NCBI GenBank assembly: GCA_903855995.1
Contig: CAIOAN010000011.1
Location: 1-64,000 of the forward strand
Reading direction: 5' to 3'
Source: an uncultured Opitutia bacterium
GTDB lineage: Bacteria; Verrucomicrobiota; Verrucomicrobiia; Opitutales; UBA953
Length of the DNA stretch: 64,000 bases
Part shown: piece after piece, positions 4,349 to 14,795 of the stretch
Position numbering within the stretch: position 1 is the stretch's first letter
Layout: each line of letters begins with the position of its first letter
Translations under genes and position numbers: made by a program
The notes under the pieces: model-generated
Told to the model about the DNA's origin: nothing
Database searches by the model: none
Seen by the model: the letters and a program-made list of their open reading frames with translations, nothing else

Positions 4349-4417
4349 GGCTGGATGATATTTTTTTGTAGTCCAAGCGGTCAGAATACCTATGTTCAAA
4401 CCTCCCTCCCCCATCAC

Positions 4418-5263
4418 ATGAACAAGTTCTCGTTCCTCCTAGCCGCTGCCCTCAGCCTTTCCTTGCACGCGCAGGAAAACAAGCCTTCCGCTCCGGCCGC
4501 CACCCCGACAGCACCTGCTGCCGCCGCACCCGCTGCCGCCAAAGGCGAGCAGAAGACCTACTTCGTCGAAGTCTGGAATGGCAAGAGCGCCAATGATTGC
4601 CTCGCCTTCCAGCGCAACATCCAGCTCCTCTCACAGGAGCTCGAAGAGCTTAAGAAGCTCCAAGTGTTCCTCGATAACGCTCTGACCACACCGGAGCGCG
4701 AAGCCCGCGGTCACGACATCGCCGCCAAGCAGGCCAAGCTCAAGGGCGACAATGAATCGATGGGTAAGCTCTACAACGGCTTCAGCATCGACCGCCCCTT
4801 CCAGTTTATCCCGACCAAGGCTCTCTTCGCCGTACCTCTCTCCAATGAGGACCACGCCAAAATCTCGGCCGCCAAGGATTTTAAGCCCGATTCCGTAATC
4901 ATCGCCGGCGACAAGAAGTTCCTCATCAAGGACACCATCGCTGGCCAGGTTGAGGTCGAAACCTTCCAGATCTCGCTGAAGCGCATCGTCGACACCAAGG
5001 CCCAGCTTCAGCAACTCATCGACCTCCAGCCCAAGCTGACCAAGGACGACGACAAGAAGAAGGTCGAGAAGGCCATCAAGGAAGTCCAAGACGAGCTCAA
5101 CAAGAGCCTCGAAGAGTTCAAGAAGGCCCGTGGCTTCGACTACCCCTCCGAAAACATCACCCTCCCAGCTGAAGCCAAGCTCGCCGTCCAGATCACGGAA
5201 GAAGAAAAGAAGGCCATCGACGCCAAGACTAGCCCCGCCAAGAGCGAGCCGGAAAAGAAGTAA
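4418..5263 (+). CDS. Secreted protein of unknown function, paralogue 1
   Basis: 281 residues from ATG 4418. This start is chosen over 4355 because it begins a clear signal peptide (MNKFSFLLAAALSLSLHAQ). An Ala/Pro linker follows, then a mostly helical body with LSQELEELKKLQVFLDNALTTPERE near residue 75 and a lysine/glutamate-rich C-terminus. I do not recognise a family. The gene 39 bases downstream encodes a diverged copy: both have a coiled segment ending in NALTT-x-ER or TALTT-x-ER, an aromatic GF motif about 40 residues later, and a DKKFL / DRRLL strand. Tandem duplication is the simplest reading. It is probably an envelope protein; no function is assigned. Confidence 0.6.
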   Translation: MNKFSFLLAAALSLSLHAQENKPSAPAATPTAPAAAAPAAAKGEQKTYFVEVWNGKSANDCLAFQRNIQLLSQELEELKKLQVFLDNALTTPEREARGHDIAAKQAKLKGDNESMGKLYNGFSIDRPFQFIPTKALFAVPLSNEDHAKISAAKDFKPDSVIIAGDKKFLIKDTIAGQVEVETFQISLKRIVDTKAQLQQLIDLQPKLTKDDDKKKVEKAIKEVQDELNKSLEEFKKARGFDYPSENITLPAEAKLAVQITEEEKKAIDAKTSPAKSEPEKK

Positions 5264-5302
5264 TCCTGCCCCCCTTACCCCACCCCAAACCTAAGCACTA
5301 AA

Positions 5303-6160
5303 ATGCCTACCGCCACCGACACCCCCGCTGCTCCTGCCGAAGCCCCCAAGGGTCCGGTCATCGAGCTCATCCCGCTCGGACAGAACCTCGGACGCGTCGT
5401 CCTCACCATTGCCAACCAAGGCTCCCTTGCCCGCTTCCAACAGGAACTCGGCACCCTCGGCCAGCAGCTCGGCCGCATCCAGCAGTTTCAGCAGCGCATC
5501 CAGACCGCCCTCACGACGGTTGAGCGCGACGCATTGGTCAAAGTCGCTGAAGCTGAAGTGAAAGACTTCAATGAAAAGGACGGCGTGTTCGTCAAGGTCT
5601 GGGGCTTCACCATCACCGCCCTCGCCAACCGCCAGACGACGTTCGTCAACACCGCCCTGCGCCTCTTCGCCATCGTGAACGAAGAAGAGGCCGCCAAGGC
5701 CCGCTCGGACAAGGGCTTCAAGGAAGAGCAGCTCGTCATCCGTGGCGACCGCCGCCTCCTCCAGACCGCTGAAATCCGCGGCCTCGATCTCGTGGTCCAG
5801 TTTGACCAGTTCGCCAAAGTCCTCCAAGCCCGCCGCGACGCCTTCCTCCAGCTGACCGAGCTCCTCAAGCGCTCGACCAACGAAGAAGAAAAGGCCCGCA
5901 TCAAAACCCAGCTCGACCAGACCGCCGAGTTGCTCGAAAAGGGCAACAAGGAGATGGCCGAAAGCGTAGGCTACTCGATCACGCACAATTACGAGATCGA
6001 AGTCCTGGAATCCAAGTTCGTCATCCTGCTCAACCAGGAAGAAGTGAACCAGGTTCAGAATCTCTTCGCCAACGCCCAGCAGCAGGCTGCCGCCCAGGTC
6101 GCCCCGGTGAGCATCGAAGCCCCCAAGGCCGAGAAGCGCATCGTCGAAAAGAAGAACTAA
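5303..6160 (+). CDS. Unknown protein, paralogue 2 (no signal peptide)
   Basis: 285 residues from ATG 5303. It shares the helical core of the gene before it (QQELGTLGQQLGRIQQFQ, then TALTTVERDAL, then VIRGDRRLLQ) but begins MPTATDTPAAPAEAPKG with no signal peptide, so the pair may act on opposite sides of the membrane. The body is predicted to be helical and rich in Gln, Glu and Lys. A strong terminator follows at 6185, so the two paralogues form the end of a transcription unit that may begin at the kinase gene. I do not recognise a family. Confidence 0.55.
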   Translation: MPTATDTPAAPAEAPKGPVIELIPLGQNLGRVVLTIANQGSLARFQQELGTLGQQLGRIQQFQQRIQTALTTVERDALVKVAEAEVKDFNEKDGVFVKVWGFTITALANRQTTFVNTALRLFAIVNEEEAAKARSDKGFKEEQLVIRGDRRLLQTAEIRGLDLVVQFDQFAKVLQARRDAFLQLTELLKRSTNEEEKARIKTQLDQTAELLEKGNKEMAESVGYSITHNYEIEVLESKFVILLNQEEVNQVQNLFANAQQQAAAQVAPVSIEAPKAEKRIVEKKN

Positions 6161-6218: not shown

Positions 6219-7187
6219 CTAGAATAACTCGCCCTGGCTCGGCTCAGCGGGCGGGGCGGACTTCTTGACCGGCGGCACCACCAAACGAGGCAACGCAGGC
6301 TCGGGAGCCACGGCGCGGCCGTGCTTCGACTGATAGCGTCGCAGCGTCGAATGCATCTCCATCTCCATCAGAAACGCTTCTGTCGCGCTGATATCTTCCG
6401 TGACGGGCAAACCTGGCTCAAAGGCGAAATCCGTCTGGAAGGTGACCAGCTTGAGGTTGCCACGGATACGTTCGGCTTCCGTTTTGATCTGCTCGCGGAA
6501 ACGCTCCGGCTCAATGGTATCCGTGGCAGAGAGAACACCCTCAAGGTCGCCGTGCTCGGTCAGCCACTTGACGGCGGTCTTGGGGCCGACACCGCGGAGC
6601 CCTGGAATATTATCCGCCGCGTCCCCGACCAAGGCGAGGTAGTCGGCGATGCGTTCCGGCGGCACTCCGAACTTCTCCGTGACGGCGGCGGCATCGAGTC
6701 GGCGCCAGCCCAGCGCGGGATTGGCCGTCGGCGGCGGGGCCAGCTGCAGGACCTTGCCTCCCACGCACTGACCGAAATCCTTGTCCGCACTGACGATGAT
6801 ACACTCGTGGCCGTCGGCCGTCAGCCGACGCACCGCGGTCGCAATCAGATCGTCCGCTTCGACTCCCCTCTGCTCCATCACCTGGAAACCCAGCAAGGAA
6901 GTCAGTCGCTTGATCTCCGGAATCTGCAGGACAATATCTTCCGGGGTGTCATCGCGCTGCGCCTTGTATTCAGGCAACGCTGCCAAGTGGCGATCCGAGC
7001 CGCCGAGGTCAAAAAAGACGATGCTGCGATCCGGCTTCTCGCCTTCGCGTAGATCCAACAACGACTTCATCCAGCCGTGCAGGGCTCCGGTCGGAAACTG
7101 ATCTGTCTGACGGCGAAGATTGGACCGCTCCATGGCGAAGTGGCTCCGGAAAACCAGATTGAAGCCGTCGACAAGCATCCAGCGCAT
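6219..7187 (-). CDS. Stand-alone 5'-3' exonuclease (PolA N-terminal type)
   Basis: 322 residues of the FEN/PolA 5'-nuclease family without a polymerase domain. Motifs in order: DGFNLVFRSHFAM at the N-terminus (first metal Asp), GVEADDLIATAVRR, VSADKDFGQCV, and the helix-three-turn-helix GDAADNIPGLRGVGPKTAV. The enzyme would remove RNA primers or flaps, or act on branched DNA. Start ATG 7187 is chosen because the longer open frame runs through the upstream terminator and antisense to the secretin gene. The C-terminus is Pro-rich with no known domain. The gene converges on the paralogue pair. Confidence 0.85.
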   Translation of the reverse strand: MRWMLVDGFNLVFRSHFAMERSNLRRQTDQFPTGALHGWMKSLLDLREGEKPDRSIVFFDLGGSDRHLAALPEYKAQRDDTPEDIVLQIPEIKRLTSLLGFQVMEQRGVEADDLIATAVRRLTADGHECIIVSADKDFGQCVGGKVLQLAPPPTANPALGWRRLDAAAVTEKFGVPPERIADYLALVGDAADNIPGLRGVGPKTAVKWLTEHGDLEGVLSATDTIEPERFREQIKTEAERIRGNLKLVTFQTDFAFEPGLPVTEDISATEAFLMEMEMHSTLRRYQSKHGRAVAPEPALPRLVVPPVKKSAPPAEPSQGELF

Positions 7188-7222: not shown

Positions 7223-7254
7223 GAAAAAAGCAGGCCCGCCAAATGGCGGGCCTG
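7223..7254 (-). terminator. Terminator of the pilus-like cluster
   Basis: Read on the minus strand, CAGGCCCGCC-ATTT-GGCGGGCCTG forms a perfect 10-bp stem with a 4-nt loop followed by CTTTTTTC. It lies 25 bases past the secretin stop and upstream of the exonuclease, closing the five-gene operon. Confidence 0.88.
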
Positions 7255-7278: not shown

Positions 7279-10242
7279 TTACTTGGCAGGCTCTTCGATG
7301 ACCTTCGGAGCGGCCGCCGCAGGGGTAGCAACTTCGATCGGCTCGCGGTAGACTGCGCCGCCCGGGGAGATGAGCGTGGGGTTCGAGAAAGTCGAACCAG
7401 CGCGCATGCCGGGGTGAGTGCTGCGGAGGGTGGCGCCGCCCGGGGAAACCAGGTTAGCGGTGACGAAGACCATGAGGCTCTTCTTCTGAATCGTCTTGCC
7501 GCTGGAGCGGAAGGCCGCGCCGATAATCGGAATCGAACCCAGGACAGGGACGCGGTCTTCAACCGTCTTCACTTCTTCGCGGGTCAGGCCACCGATGACA
7601 ACCGTGGCGCCGTCGAAGACGGTGACGTCGGTGGTCACTTCACGGGTGCTGAAGATCGGCTGGAAGAATCCCGAAGGAACGACGACCGTCGTGCCGGCAG
7701 AGATAGCGATCGAGGTGCCGCCGTATTCGACGAAACCTTCGAATTCAGTCACCTTCGGCTTCAGGTTGAGGGCGATGGAATCATCGGCCGCGACGGTAGG
7801 GGTGACTTCGAGCGTCACACCGACTTCCTGGACGGTGAAGTCCTGGGGAGTGCCGGCCGTGATGGTCACACCCGCGGAACCGCCACCCGTAGTGGTGCCA
7901 GTCGAAGCGGAGGTACCGACGTTGGACTGAGTGTCGCCGTAAGCCTGCGGATAGCGGAGCAGCTGGGCCACCTTGATGACCGCGGTCTTACCGTCGAGGA
8001 CGGTCAAGCTCGGGGAGGACATCAGGTCGCTGCCTTCATTTTCTTCAATCGCACGGATCATGACACTGAGGTCATACTGGCCGAGCACGCCGACCTTATT
8101 ACTGAAAGTCTGGGCGGTACCGCCGAGGTTGACGCCTCCAGGCATCGTGGGCGGAGAGATATCGTAGCTGTCAGCTTTGCCAGGGGTCGTGGCGGCGGTA
8201 CCGCTGACGTTCAAGGCCGGGGCAGGGCCATTGTTCGTCTTGAACACGGAGTTAATCGAACGGAGACCCGTCTGCGCAATCGGGGCTGCCGCCGAGCCGA
8301 CCGTCCAGTTCACGCCGAGCTCATTGAGCATCTTCTGTTCCACTTCGATGAACTTAGCCTCGATGTGGACCTGCTTGATGTCGGAGTAGCGACGGATGAT
8401 GTTCTTCACACGGTCCAGATTCTTACGGCTCTGGTAGACGATGAGGTTCGTGCCGTCATAGGACAGCGTGGCGGGCGGTTCGAAGGCGACGCCCGAACGG
8501 GTAAGGAAGTTCTTGATTGCGACTTCTTCGGGGCGCTGGCCATCGCCGGCACCTGCGGCGCTGGCGGCGGCACCACCGAAGGGGCTGGCGGCGGCACCAC
8601 CGGCGGCACCACCGGCGGCCGGGGCACTACCGCTGGCGCTCAGGCCAGTCATCTTAAGAACAGCAGCCGTCGAGAGGGGGTAGATTTCCGTTTCCAGGAG
8701 GCTGTCGCCGGAATCCTCGCGGACTTCGATGATGCCTCCGGAGCTGACGGAGAAACTAAAACCAACGCGCTTGCAGACGTACTCGAGGCACTGGTAGACC
8801 GAAACGCCTTTAAGCTGGATGCTGACGCTGGGGTTCTTGTTCGCGGGATCAAGGAGGACGATGTTCACGCCCTTCTGGTCCTTGTCATAGTTCTGAGAAG
8901 CCTGAACGAGACTCTGGAGAGCGCGCTCGAGGGGCTGATCGCGGACGGTGAAGCCGGGGTCCGGAATCAGGATCGACTTCATCTTGTCGATGACAGGGTC
9001 AGCGGAGTTGCCGAGATCCTGCTTCGTGTTTTCACGATTGAAGACTTCGGGTAACTTCCAGGTTTCATCGAGGAGCTCGAGGAGCTTGCCCTTGGTGACG
9101 CCGCGGTTCCACTGGCCGGAGTTCTCCGAAAGCATCTGGCGGATACGGACCTGGTAGGCCTTGGACTCGGAATTGTTCGGCTGGTACTGCAGGACTTCGC
9201 GATAGGAATCGAGAGCACCCTGATAGTCGCCATAGAGGTAGCGGGCACGGCCCTTGACTAAGAGATCATTGACCTTCTCATCCTTGGCGCGGAGGCCGGG
9301 GGAGATTTCGTCGACGCTGCGGTAGGAGGGGTTATTGCGCTTGGCGGCGTATTCCTTCTTCAGGCGAACGACGCTGGGGTCTTCGGAACCCTTGAGCTTT
9401 TCGTAATCACGCAAGAGCGACTCCGCGCGGGGAATGTCGCGGGCTTCGATGGCGATGAGCGCACGACGGGCGATGGCCGAGCCCTTATCGTCCTTGGCGC
9501 GAGCCTTCAGGTCCTTGTTGACCAGCGAGTCAGGCCCGAGCTCCTGGGTGATCCGGTCGATCTCATTGGAGGCCTTGTCGAGGGAGTCAGCATCACCCTT
9601 ACGGATGAGGCTTTCGGCCGCAGAAAGAGCGTCTTCGCTCTTGCGAAGGCTCGTGGCGCTGGCCGTGGCGAGGCGCTGCACTTCTTCACGAGCGACATTG
9701 TCGCCACCCTTGTCGCCAGCTTCGCGCTGAACGTTGATTTCCTGCTTCGCGATCACGAGGCTATCGCGAACCTTCTGGCTGGCAGGGGTGTCCGGGAGAC
9801 CGGCGATGGCGCCGCTAGCACCGTCGAGGCGTTCGAGGGCGGCCTTAAACTGACCGTCGGCGGCCTGCTTCTTGGCGGCATCAATGGCCTGAGCCACTTC
9901 AGCAAAGAGTTTCTCGTGCGTCGTGGCGACGTCCTCAAGGGCGCTGGCCGGCTTGGCGGCGGGCTCGTCGGCGGCCTTCTTGGCAGCGTCGGCGGCGGCC
10001 ATGGAAGCCTTCACTGAGGCGAGGCCCTCCTTGGCACCTTGGTCATCGGCATCAATCTGAATGATCTGCTCGAACTTATCCTGGGCAGCCTGGAGATTAC
10101 CTTCGTCGCGAGCCTTGAGGGCTTCGACGAGGAACTGGCGCTTACGCGCCTGGGGGTCGCCGTCCTGCGCGACCAGCGAGCCGGCGGCGAGGGCAATGGC
10201 GAGTGCGGCCCAAGCGAGCTGCGAACGGTGGAGGTTTTTCAT
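7279..10242 (-). CDS. Amuc_1098-family secretin, outer-membrane type IV pilus-like channel
   Basis: A 987-residue secretin. A signal peptide (MKNLHRSQLAWAALAIALAA, cleaved near LVAQ) leads into an N-terminal coiled-coil/TPR region (residues about 30-400, with RYLYGDYQGALDSYREVL typical of TPR). STN/N0- and N1-type domains follow, then a long Ala/Gly linker near residue 560. The C-terminal secretin domain includes VHIEAKFIEVEQKML and the signature VPVLGSIPIIGAAF near residue 900. The long TPR N-terminus and the four partner genes upstream match the Amuc_1098 family of Akkermansia. It would form the multimeric outer-membrane pore of a pilus-like machine. It is the last gene of its operon. Confidence 0.87.
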   Translation of the reverse strand: MKNLHRSQLAWAALAIALAAGSLVAQDGDPQARKRQFLVEALKARDEGNLQAAQDKFEQIIQIDADDQGAKEGLASVKASMAAADAAKKAADEPAAKPASALEDVATTHEKLFAEVAQAIDAAKKQAADGQFKAALERLDGASGAIAGLPDTPASQKVRDSLVIAKQEINVQREAGDKGGDNVAREEVQRLATASATSLRKSEDALSAAESLIRKGDADSLDKASNEIDRITQELGPDSLVNKDLKARAKDDKGSAIARRALIAIEARDIPRAESLLRDYEKLKGSEDPSVVRLKKEYAAKRNNPSYRSVDEISPGLRAKDEKVNDLLVKGRARYLYGDYQGALDSYREVLQYQPNNSESKAYQVRIRQMLSENSGQWNRGVTKGKLLELLDETWKLPEVFNRENTKQDLGNSADPVIDKMKSILIPDPGFTVRDQPLERALQSLVQASQNYDKDQKGVNIVLLDPANKNPSVSIQLKGVSVYQCLEYVCKRVGFSFSVSSGGIIEVREDSGDSLLETEIYPLSTAAVLKMTGLSASGSAPAAGGAAGGAAASPFGGAAASAAGAGDGQRPEEVAIKNFLTRSGVAFEPPATLSYDGTNLIVYQSRKNLDRVKNIIRRYSDIKQVHIEAKFIEVEQKMLNELGVNWTVGSAAAPIAQTGLRSINSVFKTNNGPAPALNVSGTAATTPGKADSYDISPPTMPGGVNLGGTAQTFSNKVGVLGQYDLSVMIRAIEENEGSDLMSSPSLTVLDGKTAVIKVAQLLRYPQAYGDTQSNVGTSASTGTTTGGGSAGVTITAGTPQDFTVQEVGVTLEVTPTVAADDSIALNLKPKVTEFEGFVEYGGTSIAISAGTTVVVPSGFFQPIFSTREVTTDVTVFDGATVVIGGLTREEVKTVEDRVPVLGSIPIIGAAFRSSGKTIQKKSLMVFVTANLVSPGGATLRSTHPGMRAGSTFSNPTLISPGGAVYREPIEVATPAAAAPKVIEEPAK

Positions 10243-10262
10243 GAGTTTGGGGCTTTGAAAAG

Positions 10263-11216
10263 TTATTTCTTGGTGGGGGTTTTTTCGACGGTGGGGGGCT
10301 TAGTCTTAGGCTTAGGGGGAGGGGGAGGCGGAGGCGCAGGCACAGAGAGTGCCTCGCTAAACGTCTTCTTCGGCTTCTTGGGGTTAGGAGCGAAGTGCTT
10401 ATCAAAAGTCACCGTCTTGGATGCTAAGTCAATTTCTTTGACGGTGTAGACGGCCTGATTGTAGGTAAACTTCTCGCCCACCAAGTGGAGCGTCTTGGTC
10501 CAGCCTGGCTCGCTCGCGGAAGCGATAACGATGTCAGTCCGGCCGGCGAATTCGAGGGGCTTAATGTCGTCGATATCGACAATCTGTCCAAATTGGCGGT
10601 CATCCACGGTCAGCACCTGGCGCACGGTGATGATACCATCAGCGTCCTTATCCTTCACCACCTTGAACGCCTTAAGCGTGAGGTAGGGGGCATCCGGAAT
10701 CGGCTTATTCAGCTTACAGCCCTCTATGTACTGCTTGGTCTTGATATTCTGAAGCGTGAACAGGCGGTCTTCCTCTTTGGCGTTACGGGGCAGGATTGTC
10801 TCGATAACAATAAAGGGGTAGGTCGGATGACCGACGGACACCAAACTGATGCCAAACGGGGGCAGCACCTCGGCCTTACGGCTGCGGGGCACATAATCCT
10901 TAATAGAGGCATCCCAGACGACGTCGATGGTCGTGAAAAGGTCGTAATCCCAATTGTCGTCGTTCTCTTCGGGGCTGAGCCAATCCTTCACATTGTCCTC
11001 GAGCGAGGCGAGAGGGGAAGACGGGTACACCGCACCCTGCGGGGGCTGCTCTTTGAGCTGTCGGATCAGCGCGGCCTTCTCATCGACGTTATCAATGACG
11101 ATGGGCCGGATGATGCCGGGAAACATGCCCAGCTGGAGGCCAAGGTAGGCGAACACGCCTATGCAAAGCAGCAAGGCTCCGGCGGCGATGAGAAGGATGT
11201 CCTTACGAGAATTCAT
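10263..11216 (-). CDS. Amuc_1099-family pilus-like system protein
   Basis: 317 residues: one N-terminal membrane anchor (about residues 7-30, ILLIAAGALLLCIGVFAYLG), a periplasmic beta-rich body, and a Pro/Lys-rich tail (APPPPPPPKPKTKPP). It sits between the Amuc_1100-like gene and the secretin, the same position as Amuc_1099 in Akkermansia muciniphila, with 13- and 20-base gaps. By position and topology it probably bridges the inner membrane and the secretin, like PilP; this is inference. The proline tail could span the peptidoglycan. Confidence 0.7.
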   Translation of the reverse strand: MNSRKDILLIAAGALLLCIGVFAYLGLQLGMFPGIIRPIVIDNVDEKAALIRQLKEQPPQGAVYPSSPLASLEDNVKDWLSPEENDDNWDYDLFTTIDVVWDASIKDYVPRSRKAEVLPPFGISLVSVGHPTYPFIVIETILPRNAKEEDRLFTLQNIKTKQYIEGCKLNKPIPDAPYLTLKAFKVVKDKDADGIITVRQVLTVDDRQFGQIVDIDDIKPLEFAGRTDIVIASASEPGWTKTLHLVGEKFTYNQAVYTVKEIDLASKTVTFDKHFAPNPKKPKKTFSEALSVPAPPPPPPPKPKTKPPTVEKTPTKK

Positions 11217-11229
11217 GTCCTAGGAGCTC

Positions 11230-12345
11230 TTATTTCTTGGGTTCGCCCTCAGGAGAGCTGGCAGGCTTCTCCTCCGGGATGGAAAGGTAATCGACCTGCA
11301 CGACGAAGGCGGAGGGCTTGCGAGGAAGGGCCAGCGGACGCTTATCCTCGGCAGGAGTAGCGGCGGCGCCGAGCTTACCAGTCGTAGCATTGGCGACCGG
11401 CGCTTCGACAGTTTCCGCGCCGAAGAAACCGTTGCCGGCGGGGGCGGCGGCCGGCGCGGCGGCGGAGGTGGCAGCGGTGGCGGCACCCAGAAGTTTTTCG
11501 ATCTCCTTGGTCGTGGCGCCTACCTCAACCAAAGTAATGGCGAAGGGGCGGCCGGAATTACGGACCTTGTTCACGAAGGTGCGAAGCGTAGGCGTATAAC
11601 CGACGAAGCGCACGCGGAAGGAAAGGGTCTCCACCTGGTTGCGTCGGTCAAACGTGCGCACGGGGGCGAATTCGTCGGCCTCATTGCGGGAGCCATCAGC
11701 TTCCGGCCCGTAAGTGCCGGCGCCCGGCTTGCCTTCAGGAATAAGGGTGAATGTTTCGATCGGCTCGCGATCGATAGATTCAAGCAAGAGGGGGGAGCCA
11801 GCCGGGCGAGATTCCGCCAGCTGACGGAAAAGGTAATCAACGATCAAACGCTGCTGGTCGACGTGCTGGAACTCGCGCTTCGGGGAAGTGCCCTGATTGC
11901 GGATGTAGCGGCGGAAACCAAAATCGCAGGGCTCGTTGGGGAGCATCTTGATATCCTGGTCGTGTGCCAGTTTGCGCCAGTCATCGACGGACTGACGGAG
12001 AAGTGAACTCAGGTCGGCGGCGTTGCTCGTGCTCTTGCCGCGGATGGCGAGATCAGGGTTGCCGGCGATGCTGGTGCGGAGCGCCGAGATATGTCCGGTA
12101 AGCTCGGCGAGGTCTTCGACCGACTTCTTGACATTATCGGCAGTGAGCGAAATCGGGGCGGAGCCAGGAGCGAGCTCATGTCCCTTAAGGAGACGGCTGG
12201 TTTCAGCTGACGCCTTAACCAACGCTGCGTCTGCCTTTGATTTGGCGGCGTAAGCGAGGTAGGAGAAAATCGCTCCGCCGAGGAAAATCGCGGCGGCGAG
12301 GATGATGCCGGCGAAGAAGCCGGGGTTCTTTTTGAAATTGTCCAT
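11230..12345 (-). CDS. Amuc_1100-family pilus-like protein
   Basis: 371 residues: a short cytoplasmic head (MDNFKKNPGFF), one membrane helix (about 12-35, AGIILAAAIFLGGAIFSYLAYA), a coiled-coil segment, an alpha/beta body, and an Ala-rich C-terminus. Topology and gene order match Amuc_1100 of Akkermansia muciniphila, the abundant envelope protein reported to signal through host TLR2. It resembles a PilO-type inner-membrane alignment protein (inference from topology). Here it is encoded in an organism with no visible host-association genes in this window, so the immunological activity is probably not the native role. It is 3 bases downstream of the PilM-like gene. Confidence 0.78.
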   Translation of the reverse strand: MDNFKKNPGFFAGIILAAAIFLGGAIFSYLAYAAKSKADAALVKASAETSRLLKGHELAPGSAPISLTADNVKKSVEDLAELTGHISALRTSIAGNPDLAIRGKSTSNAADLSSLLRQSVDDWRKLAHDQDIKMLPNEPCDFGFRRYIRNQGTSPKREFQHVDQQRLIVDYLFRQLAESRPAGSPLLLESIDREPIETFTLIPEGKPGAGTYGPEADGSRNEADEFAPVRTFDRRNQVETLSFRVRFVGYTPTLRTFVNKVRNSGRPFAITLVEVGATTKEIEKLLGAATAATSAAAPAAAPAGNGFFGAETVEAPVANATTGKLGAAATPAEDKRPLALPRKPSAFVVQVDYLSIPEEKPASSPEGEPKK

Positions 12346-12348
12346 GAC

Positions 12349-14049
12349 TTAGAGGGCCTTGTCCTTCTGGATGACCAAGGTGAAAGTTACTTTCGGGGAA
12401 TGAGCAGGATCGGCGAAGACGTGGATTTCGTCGCCGGGGACCGAACTGACATAAGGCGACTTCCGGACCGCATCGATGAGCTGAGAGCGATGCTGACTCA
12501 TGACCTTCGCGTTGTGCTGCTTGAGATCAAAGGGAACCTCGGTGAAAAGGAAGCGGGCGGTGACGACGACCTTGGTGACGACCACCGGGGCGGGCGGAGG
12601 CTGACCTTCGACAGGGGCGGGCGCCGGGAGCGTCTCATACTTCACATGAAGTTCTTCAATCCAGGTGTTCTTGCATGAACCGACGCGGGCCTGGAGGTCG
12701 CCCAAGAACGCCGGCCAGTTCGAACGATTCAAGACAACCGACTCGAGCTCCTTGCTGACGGCGAGATATTCCTGCGCCTTCTTGCGCGAGTCGTTGAGCG
12801 AATTTCGGTGAGCGGAAAGTTCCATCTGCCGAGCGCTCAGCACGGCGACCTTCTCCAGGTTCTGATCAACGGCGGCACTGAAAGCCAGATAGACCGGCAA
12901 GGGAGCCATGGCCGCGAGGAAAGCGGCCACGAGCAGCAGCGGCTTGCGGGCGTCGAAGGCTTGCTGGGCGGCGATATCGCGCGGGACCAGGTTAACGCCG
13001 GTGGACTGGGAAAGAATCAGGCGGGCGGCTTCGCCCACGACCTCGGAAATCTGGTACTTGGCTCGCTGCACGGTGTCCGTGGTGACTTCCGCGCCCAGAA
13101 TGACGACGGACGATGGGTCGAACTGCTCGACCGGCAGGCGAAGGGTTTCGCAAAGCTGCTCGGCGAGACCAGGCACCTGCGAGCCGCGGCCGGTGACAAG
13201 GATCCGGGCTGGCTGGCGACCGTTGGTGCCGCGGCGCACATTGATGAGGCGGCGGTTGATATCCTGCGCAAGCCGGCGAATGAAAGTCTGGGAGTTGGCC
13301 TGCAGGATCGCCACCTGCGGATCGGACTCGGCGAGGTGAATGACGCCGGAGAAATAGCCCACCTTGATTGCCTCCGCGGTCGCAAAAGGCTGACCGGTGT
13401 TATCGGAAACACCCTGGGTCAGCAGGTTGCCGCCGATGTTCGTGGCGGACTGGATGTTGACGCCGCCGGGGCCGACAAAACTGAGCGTGGTGGAACGAGC
13501 ACCTATGTTGATGATCAGAACCTCCTCGGTGGCCGAGCCGCCGGCGAGACGGAAGGCCTGACTATCGAGTAAAGGGGCCGCCTGGATGGAAGTCGGGCGC
13601 AGACCCGTCGCGGAAATGAGATTGGCGATGCGACTGGCGATCTCGGTGCGCAGCGCGAACAGCAGGACTTCGGCTTCGACGCCATCGGAGGAAATCACCT
13701 GGCTGTCCCAGATGACTTCATTGAGCGGATAAGGAATGGCGTTCTGGGCTTCGAAGGCGACAATCTGCGCCTGCCGCTCGCGCTCGACCTGCGGGACTTT
13801 GAGTGACTTCTGGAGGAGAAGGAAGGCCGGCGCGATGACCGTGACCTGGCCCGAAATTTGGTGAGCGTTGACGAGGTCTCCGAGGGCGGAAACCACCGCG
13901 TTTAACCATTCATCGTCGCCCGTGAGGCCGGGGGTGATTTCTTCGACGTAGAAGTGCTCAAGCACCAGGCTGCCGGACTCGGCGGTGAACTGCGACACCG
14001 AGACATTCGATGCGGCAAGATTAACAATAGTGGCCTTCTTCTGGCTCAT
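12349..14049 (-). CDS. Amuc_1101-family PilM-like ATPase fused to a PilN-like half
   Basis: 566 residues. The N-terminal half (about 1-345) has the actin-like PilM fold: VNLAASNVSVSQF at the start, VIAPAFLLLQKSLKVP, an ATP-binding region with IINIGARSTTLSF, and ILVTGRGSQVPGLAEQL. A membrane helix follows near residues 372-395 (LLLVAAFLAAMAPLPVYLAF), then a coiled coil and a small C-terminal domain typical of PilN. One polypeptide therefore carries what are two genes (pilM, pilN) in Proteobacteria. It would organise the inner-membrane platform of the pilus-like machine. Confidence 0.8.
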   Translation of the reverse strand: MSQKKATIVNLAASNVSVSQFTAESGSLVLEHFYVEEITPGLTGDDEWLNAVVSALGDLVNAHQISGQVTVIAPAFLLLQKSLKVPQVERERQAQIVAFEAQNAIPYPLNEVIWDSQVISSDGVEAEVLLFALRTEIASRIANLISATGLRPTSIQAAPLLDSQAFRLAGGSATEEVLIINIGARSTTLSFVGPGGVNIQSATNIGGNLLTQGVSDNTGQPFATAEAIKVGYFSGVIHLAESDPQVAILQANSQTFIRRLAQDINRRLINVRRGTNGRQPARILVTGRGSQVPGLAEQLCETLRLPVEQFDPSSVVILGAEVTTDTVQRAKYQISEVVGEAARLILSQSTGVNLVPRDIAAQQAFDARKPLLLVAAFLAAMAPLPVYLAFSAAVDQNLEKVAVLSARQMELSAHRNSLNDSRKKAQEYLAVSKELESVVLNRSNWPAFLGDLQARVGSCKNTWIEELHVKYETLPAPAPVEGQPPPAPVVVTKVVVTARFLFTEVPFDLKQHNAKVMSQHRSQLIDAVRKSPYVSSVPGDEIHVFADPAHSPKVTFTLVIQKDKAL

Positions 14050-14072
14050 ACAGGAAAGGTATAAATAGGGGG

Positions 14073-14795
14073 TTAGCGAGCTCCGGCGTCTTCGCGGATA
14101 AACTCGGGAGACGGCGAACTGGCGGGCAATTGATCGAAAATCGAATAAGGCACAAGGAACTGCGGGCGCAGGATACCGGTATTCGCGGCGACCCCGCGGT
14201 CAGCCAAATCCTTCGCCCCATCAAAGAGCTTCTTGTCCTGAATCTGCTTATGGATGGCGGCATCCATGCCCAAGGTAATCTTACCCCGCTCATCAAAAAG
14301 GGGGACTTCTGTGCCGCCGACCTCAACCTGGACATAATAATAATCAGGGGTGGCCTTGAGCCGGTCGCGGGCGACAACGTCACCGGGTAGATAGAAATAT
14401 ACCGAGCGCGTGCTTCCCCCGACTTCCATCGTTAAAACGGTCGCCGCGGCCCGGTAGTAGGTAAACTCGCTGGCATCCTTCCCCGTGCCAGACTTATAAA
14501 TCTGGGTGACGGTGACCTTCACTTTGTCGACCCAACCTTTATTAGCGGCCTTCTTGGCCCCTTCCTTGGGCTCTTTGCTCTCGGGATTGAAGTTCGCCTG
14601 AAGCTCCACCTGCATGCGAATCCAAGGATGTTTCTGGCCTCCGAGTTTAGCCGGATCAAAGTGTACGGACTTAACAGAGACGGGCGCCTTGCCGCCCGCG
14701 ACAGGCGCTCCCTCGGCCTTGCTTTGGGCAAAAGCAGCAGGCAACGAGAGGCAGACTGCCATTACATAGGCAAAAACAGCACGGACGTGGGGCAT
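14073..14795 (-). CDS. Amuc_1102-family secreted pilus-like protein
   Basis: 240 residues from ATG 14795, chosen over 14834 because it gives a compact signal peptide (MPHVRAVFAYVMAVCLSLPAAFAQ). The body has VSVKSVHFDPAKLGGQKHPWIRMQVEL and later SVYFYLPGDVVARDRLKATP, a beta-rich layout. First gene of the five-gene operon and in the position of Amuc_1102. It is probably a periplasmic or outer-membrane component; no catalytic motif is visible. The promoter should lie in the 119-base divergent region shared with the metal ABC operon. Confidence 0.7.
   Translation of the reverse strand: MPHVRAVFAYVMAVCLSLPAAFAQSKAEGAPVAGGKAPVSVKSVHFDPAKLGGQKHPWIRMQVELQANFNPESKEPKEGAKKAANKGWVDKVKVTVTQIYKSGTGKDASEFTYYRAAATVLTMEVGGSTRSVYFYLPGDVVARDRLKATPDYYYVQVEVGGTEVPLFDERGKITLGMDAAIHKQIQDKKLFDGAKDLADRGVAANTGILRPQFLVPYSIFDQLPASSPSPEFIREDAGAR

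Follow-up and report, generated by a model that had tools for sequence, protein, structure and literature searches.

An Amuc_1098-1102-type operon in an uncultured Opitutia bacterium as the likely alignment complex and pore of a type IVa-like pilus

The genes amuc_1098 to amuc_1102 in Akkermansia muciniphila (PMC5332112, PMC10688800, PMC13174399) have been referred to as a cluster of type IV pili genes, in which Amuc_1098 corresponds to PilQ; for Amuc_1100, a location in the outer membrane or on the pili is described (PMC10688800). According to a further study, amuc_1099 to amuc_1102 represent the mucin-utilization locus MUL2, for which a type IV-like pilus model was presented, and the synteny of MUL2 is retained in aquatic Akkermansiaceae and in other Verrucomicrobiales; the need of MUL2 for the utilization of glycan (mucin) is reported for Akkermansia only, as cited in that study (PMC13174399). 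The preliminary description of the DNA analysed here had stated that interest in the Akkermansia system is confined to Amuc_1100 as its product, which overlooks both the work on the type IV pili cluster and the work on MUL2.

The system is already known, and the operon described below, which is located in a stretch of 64,000 nucleotides from an uncultured Opitutia bacterium (hereafter the window), is a further member in another taxonomic order. As far as the searched literature shows, the new elements are the assignment of the Amuc_1099-like protein as PilP-like, the pairing of the operon with a motor, and its presence in the Opitutae and in more distant lineages; no paper joining Amuc_1099 with PilP and no paper on the operon-motor pairing was found in that literature. 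We consider it probable, at about 85%, that the products of the operon are the alignment complex that spans the envelope and the pore in the outer membrane of a type IVa-like pilus, the motor of which is encoded elsewhere in the genome.

Operon layout and relationship to the Akkermansia cluster

The operon consists of 5 co-directional open reading frames on the minus strand, between positions 14795 and 7279, that are separated by 23, 3, 13, and 20 nucleotides (Table 1), the first gene starting with an ATG codon at 14795. Both the reading frames and the Akkermansia locus L100 confirmed the order 1102-1101-1100-1099-1098, in the same direction, as had been claimed in the preliminary description, and thereby the MUL2-type synteny of 1102-1101-1100-1099 followed by the secretin gene. 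Locus L100 was recognised as the Akkermansia copy from the matches of its proteins to the PDB entries for Amuc_1100 (6lad, 6kny, 6laf) and Amuc_1102 (7dsz). The gene order was also identical in about 44 Opitutae loci, to the limits of the contigs, and the PilM-PilN protein had relatives in publicly available genomes that belonged almost exclusively to the Opitutae, many of them from lakes. The single terminator said to close the operon was recovered. A scan for promoters yielded sites that were no more common than in shuffled sequences.

The upstream neighbour, as read from the reading frames in the window, is a divergent metal-type ABC transporter locus, and the downstream neighbour of the secretin gene is a gene for a 5'-3' exonuclease. 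The Akkermansia operon is instead followed by coaE-rho. It was noted that the exonuclease gene also follows the secretin gene in other Opitutae (L010, L018, L025, L044) and in the distant loci L104 to L107, a neighbour retained across deep divergence. A tandem pair of genes further downstream, for exported or coiled-coil-like proteins, was found to consist of paralogues.

Table 1. Positions of the operon genes, the terminator and downstream neighbours in the window
Feature	Position	Strand	Basis
Amuc_1102-like secreted protein	14073..14795	-	Open reading frame, alignment, profile similarity to the 1102 family of the Akkermansia side
PilM-PilN fusion, Amuc_1101-like	12349..14049	-	NF045709 (272 bits), PF11104, motif and helix in alignment
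Predicted PilO-like inner-membrane protein, Amuc_1100-like	11230..12345	-	hhalign, AlphaFold2 model, PDB matches to Amuc_1100, then PilO
Probable PilP-like membrane-anchored periplasmic protein, Amuc_1099-like	10263..11216	-	hhalign, AlphaFold2 model, VIA-align
Outer-membrane secretin with N-terminal TPR region, putative PilQ role, Amuc_1098-like	7279..10242	-	NF042912 (337 bits), PF00263 (123 bits), only one further secretin in the genome
Intrinsic terminator 3' of the secretin gene	7231..7254	-	10 pairs, CTTTTTT tail
5'-3' exonuclease gene	6219..7187	-	
Tandem pair of paralogous genes	4355..6160	+	25% identity, E 2e-13

The search with the NCBIfam models placed the secretin and the PilM part far closer to the Amuc families than to ordinary PilQ and PilM. 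The secretin scored 337 bits against NF042912 (Amuc_1098), as compared to 157 bits for GspD and 125 bits for PilQ, and the PilM part scored 272 bits against NF045709 (Amuc_1101), as compared to 100 bits for pilM. These values are below the equivalog cut-offs of 750 and 650 bits, respectively, and the 2 proteins thus fall outside strict NCBI membership in the Amuc_1098 and Amuc_1101 equivalog families, a difference from the Akkermansia cluster, yet the Amuc families remained the best matches.

None of the NCBIfam or Pfam models recognised the 1102-, 1100-, and 1099-like proteins. A sequence search of the PDB with a single 1100-like protein, and profile searches with the 1100 and 1102 profiles, yielded chance-level matches only; comparisons of folds or of profile against profile were required. 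In comparisons of the families from the window with those from the Akkermansia side, hhalign gave a probability of 99.2 for 1100 (E 8.5e-20) and of 81 for 1099 (E 1.2e-5), and the profile-profile value for 1102 was 97.4 (E 1e-11); together with the NCBIfam scores, the profiles support homology for each of the 5 pairs.

Predicted roles of the encoded proteins

The 1101-like protein contains a PilM domain (residues 10-333) that matched PF11104 (PilM_2) above cut-off with 72 bits. An NLxP motif and a membrane helix follow, and the remainder is PilN-like and periplasmic. In the alignment, the L and P of the NLxP-type motif were invariant and located directly before the helix in the Opitutae as well as on the Akkermansia side. 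In known systems, PilN starts with a motif of this type, by which it binds PilM. The PilM-PilN fusion of the preliminary description was thus borne out, and the 2 single-pass membrane proteins that it listed are present and can be named, one as PilO-like and the other, less surely, as PilP-like.

The 1100-like protein was modelled with AlphaFold2 (mean pLDDT 70), and the ten best PDB matches of the model in Foldseek were chains of Amuc_1100, followed by Pseudomonas PilO. The VIA-align Z scores were 16.7 for Amuc_1100 and 9.1 for PilO, and the protein is, by its predicted fold, PilO-like. For the 1099-like protein, the model was of moderate confidence (mean pLDDT 73.5) and Foldseek returned no significant match. 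In a VIA-align comparison with 988 chains, PilP ranked first and second, with Z scores of 7.4 for the Myxococcus pilus model and 7.2 for Neisseria, the next being 4.7, all of which are below 8 and derived from a moderate-confidence model. We consider the protein to be probably, but not certainly, PilP-like. As an aside, the alignment of the Akkermansia-side 1099 family (L096-L112) contained an invariant DxDxDG...E loop of calcium-binding appearance, which the Opitutae proteins lack at the aligned place, and several distant 1099 proteins (among L104-L113) had CxxC-type cysteine pairs resembling a small zinc ribbon.

The secretin matched PF00263 with 123 bits (cut-off 27.5), and the Pfam scan revealed only the Secretin domain and a weak TPR match, with no AMIN domain detected. 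The AMIN domain is common in PilQ but missing from some secretins, and its absence here marks a variant. The 1102-like protein has an ordinary signal peptide and, by eye in the alignment, no GFTLIE prepilin motif, and is therefore, as judged from its sequence, not a canonical pilin.

Because of the folds, the motif and the order 1101-1100-1099-1098, the operon reads as a diverged M/N-O-P-Q set, which is the order of the classical pilMNOPQ genes, with 1102 in front. It shares with the classical type IVa genes the PilM domain, the PilN-type motif, the PilO-like fold, the secretin and, probably, the PilP-like fold. It differs from them in that PilM and PilN are fused, in the additional 1102 gene, in a probable PilP-like protein without the conserved lipobox cysteine, and in a secretin with a TPR region in which the AMIN domain was not detected.

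Motor genes in the genome and across the Verrucomicrobiota

The genome, which comprises 2.66 Mb on 13 contigs and is 97% complete, contains the genes pilB2-pilT-pilB1-pilC in a row on contig C6, adjoining coaE, and no M/N/O/P/Q gene was found in the stretch of C6 read around this cluster. There are 9 prepilin-like genes, 5 of which are located outside the type II secretion (T2SS) locus, and a single prepilin peptidase. The preliminary description had reported that pilB, pilT, pilC, and prepilin genes are missing; for pilB, pilT, and pilC this holds beside the operon, but not for the genome, which also contains the prepilin genes. The conclusion that it is open what the machine assembles had been drawn from the surroundings alone, and the C6 motor, the prepilins and the peptidase speak against it.

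The genome encodes only 2 secretins, one in the operon and one in the T2SS locus on contig C12. With the Amuc_1101 profile, which also picks up ordinary PilM in control genomes, we recovered only the gene in the window and one weak match that is probably FtsA. We propose that the operon is paired with the C6 motor, as one of the 2 secretins belongs to a self-complete T2SS and as the stretch read around the motor cluster has no M/N/O/P/Q genes. Counting against the pairing, the operon and the motor are located on separate contigs. It was also observed that the PilB2 and PilB1 ATPases are paired in nearly all motor clusters read (L052, L198-L205, L208, L223, L224, L230-L237), and that PilT sits between them in the Opitutae, but not in genomes from the Akkermansia side.

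The operon might alternatively provide the pore and the inner-membrane components for a T2SS-like system that exports proteins and builds no pilus, as type IV pili and T2SS are of common ancestry, the secretin also matches GspD with 157 bits, and MUL2 is compared to a secretion system in PMC13174399. However, the T2SS on C12, with homologous secretin, ATPase and platform proteins, is a separate and self-complete locus that contains its own GspD, E, F, and K, L-like, M-like, and C-like proteins and pseudopilins. Moreover, the operon is the sole secretin system in the genomes G149, G176, G116, and G207, and its 1100 protein resembles PilO and its 1099 protein, less surely, PilP. We regard export without a pilus as improbable.

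We compared the presence of the Amuc_1101-type gene and of PilB1 in 289 Verrucomicrobiota genomes, using E-value thresholds of <1e-20 and <1e-190, respectively, that were chosen after a gap in the values had been seen. Both were present in 251 genomes and both absent in 26, while 12 were discordant, corresponding to concordance in 277 of the 289 genomes (Fisher test, p 6e-26). The test was repeated at the level of genera because related genomes are not independent (p 2e-13), and joint absence was recorded in 11 families. PilT was rejected as a phylogenetic marker in favour of PilB1, since most of the operon-less genomes have retained it.

The individual genomes provided further details. In the close relatives G149 and G176, the only secretin was of the Amuc_1098 type, and there was only one ATPase cluster, which consisted of pilB2-pilT-pilB1 together with pilC. 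Among the genomes without the operon, G010, G143, and G088 retained PilT alone, without PilB1, PilB2, and PilC, whereas the motor cluster of G283 (L214) is decaying, with a broken PilB1 reading frame, a partial PilC gene and no PilB2 found. As exceptions, G108 has a full motor and no detectable operon, its GspD gene being frameshifted as well, and 8 genomes contained the operon without a close PilB1.

An independent machine that makes no use of the C6 PilB, PilT, and PilC proteins would fit the lack of an adjoining motor gene and the case of G108, but it is very improbable given the concordance with PilB1, the joint absence in 11 families, the missing or broken motor genes in the 4 operon-less genomes named above, and the linkage to coaE-rho. 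The operon is followed by coaE-rho in the Verrucomicrobiae, including Akkermansia, while the order is coaE-rho-pilB2-pilT-pilB1-pilC in the Opitutae, and in G238 operon-rho and pilB2-pilB1-pilC are located about 10 kb apart on the same contig and strand. Since coaE-rho adjoins the operon in the former group and the motor in the latter, the simplest reading of these gene orders suggests one ancestral locus that was later split.

Several other arrangements were noted: the secretin gene is duplicated in tandem in several lineages (L101, L108, L110, L111, L220), Akkermansia contains a second, lone Amuc_1098-type secretin gene far from the operon (L206:7900-10425), and on contig C7 of G001 (L200:3670-7409) an extra ATPase gene, a PilC-like gene and a prepilin gene are located about 3-9 kb downstream of the operon secretin gene, possibly as part of a second machine.

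The proposed pilus and its significance

From the genes, domains, fold relations, co-occurrence and synteny observed here, we infer that the complex assembles and pairs with the C6 motor as follows. The cytoplasmic PilM domain, held to the fused PilN part via the NLxP motif, would pair with the 1100 protein, the PilO-like component of the inner membrane, and the PilP-like 1099 protein would connect this complex to the secretin, through which the fibre would exit; the 1102 protein may be an additional exported subunit. PilB1 and PilB2 would polymerise the fibre on PilC and PilT would withdraw it, all encoded by the C6 cluster, and the prepilins would be matured by the one prepilin peptidase. 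Most likely, the machine thus builds a type IV pilus and is driven by a motor whose genes are located elsewhere.

As to its role, which like all functions in the host organism we infer, attachment to particles or glycans is most likely, by analogy with the proposal for Akkermansiaceae. Alternatively, the pilus might be used chiefly for DNA uptake rather than for attachment or movement: many bacteria use type IV pili for competence, and G204, G116, and G207 have kept the operon and the PilB genes with no PilT above the family cut-off. This is rather unlikely to be the main role, as the Akkermansiaceae work indicates glycan attachment (PMC13174399).

More tentatively, and at slightly less than even odds, the pilus may represent a subtype specific to the Verrucomicrobiota, characterized by the PilM-PilN fusion, a membrane-anchored PilP, a TPR secretin without AMIN domain, the exported 1102 protein and 2 paired PilB proteins, and formerly encoded by one coaE-rho locus. 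If so, Amuc_1100 would be its PilO, a part of the inner membrane and not a surface protein. As a PilO homologue, Amuc_1100 is predicted to have an inner-membrane, periplasm-facing location, which would call its customary outer-membrane description into question. Finally, since freshwater Opitutae and more distantly related members of the phylum have the same set of genes, the system is suggested to be far older than life in mucus.
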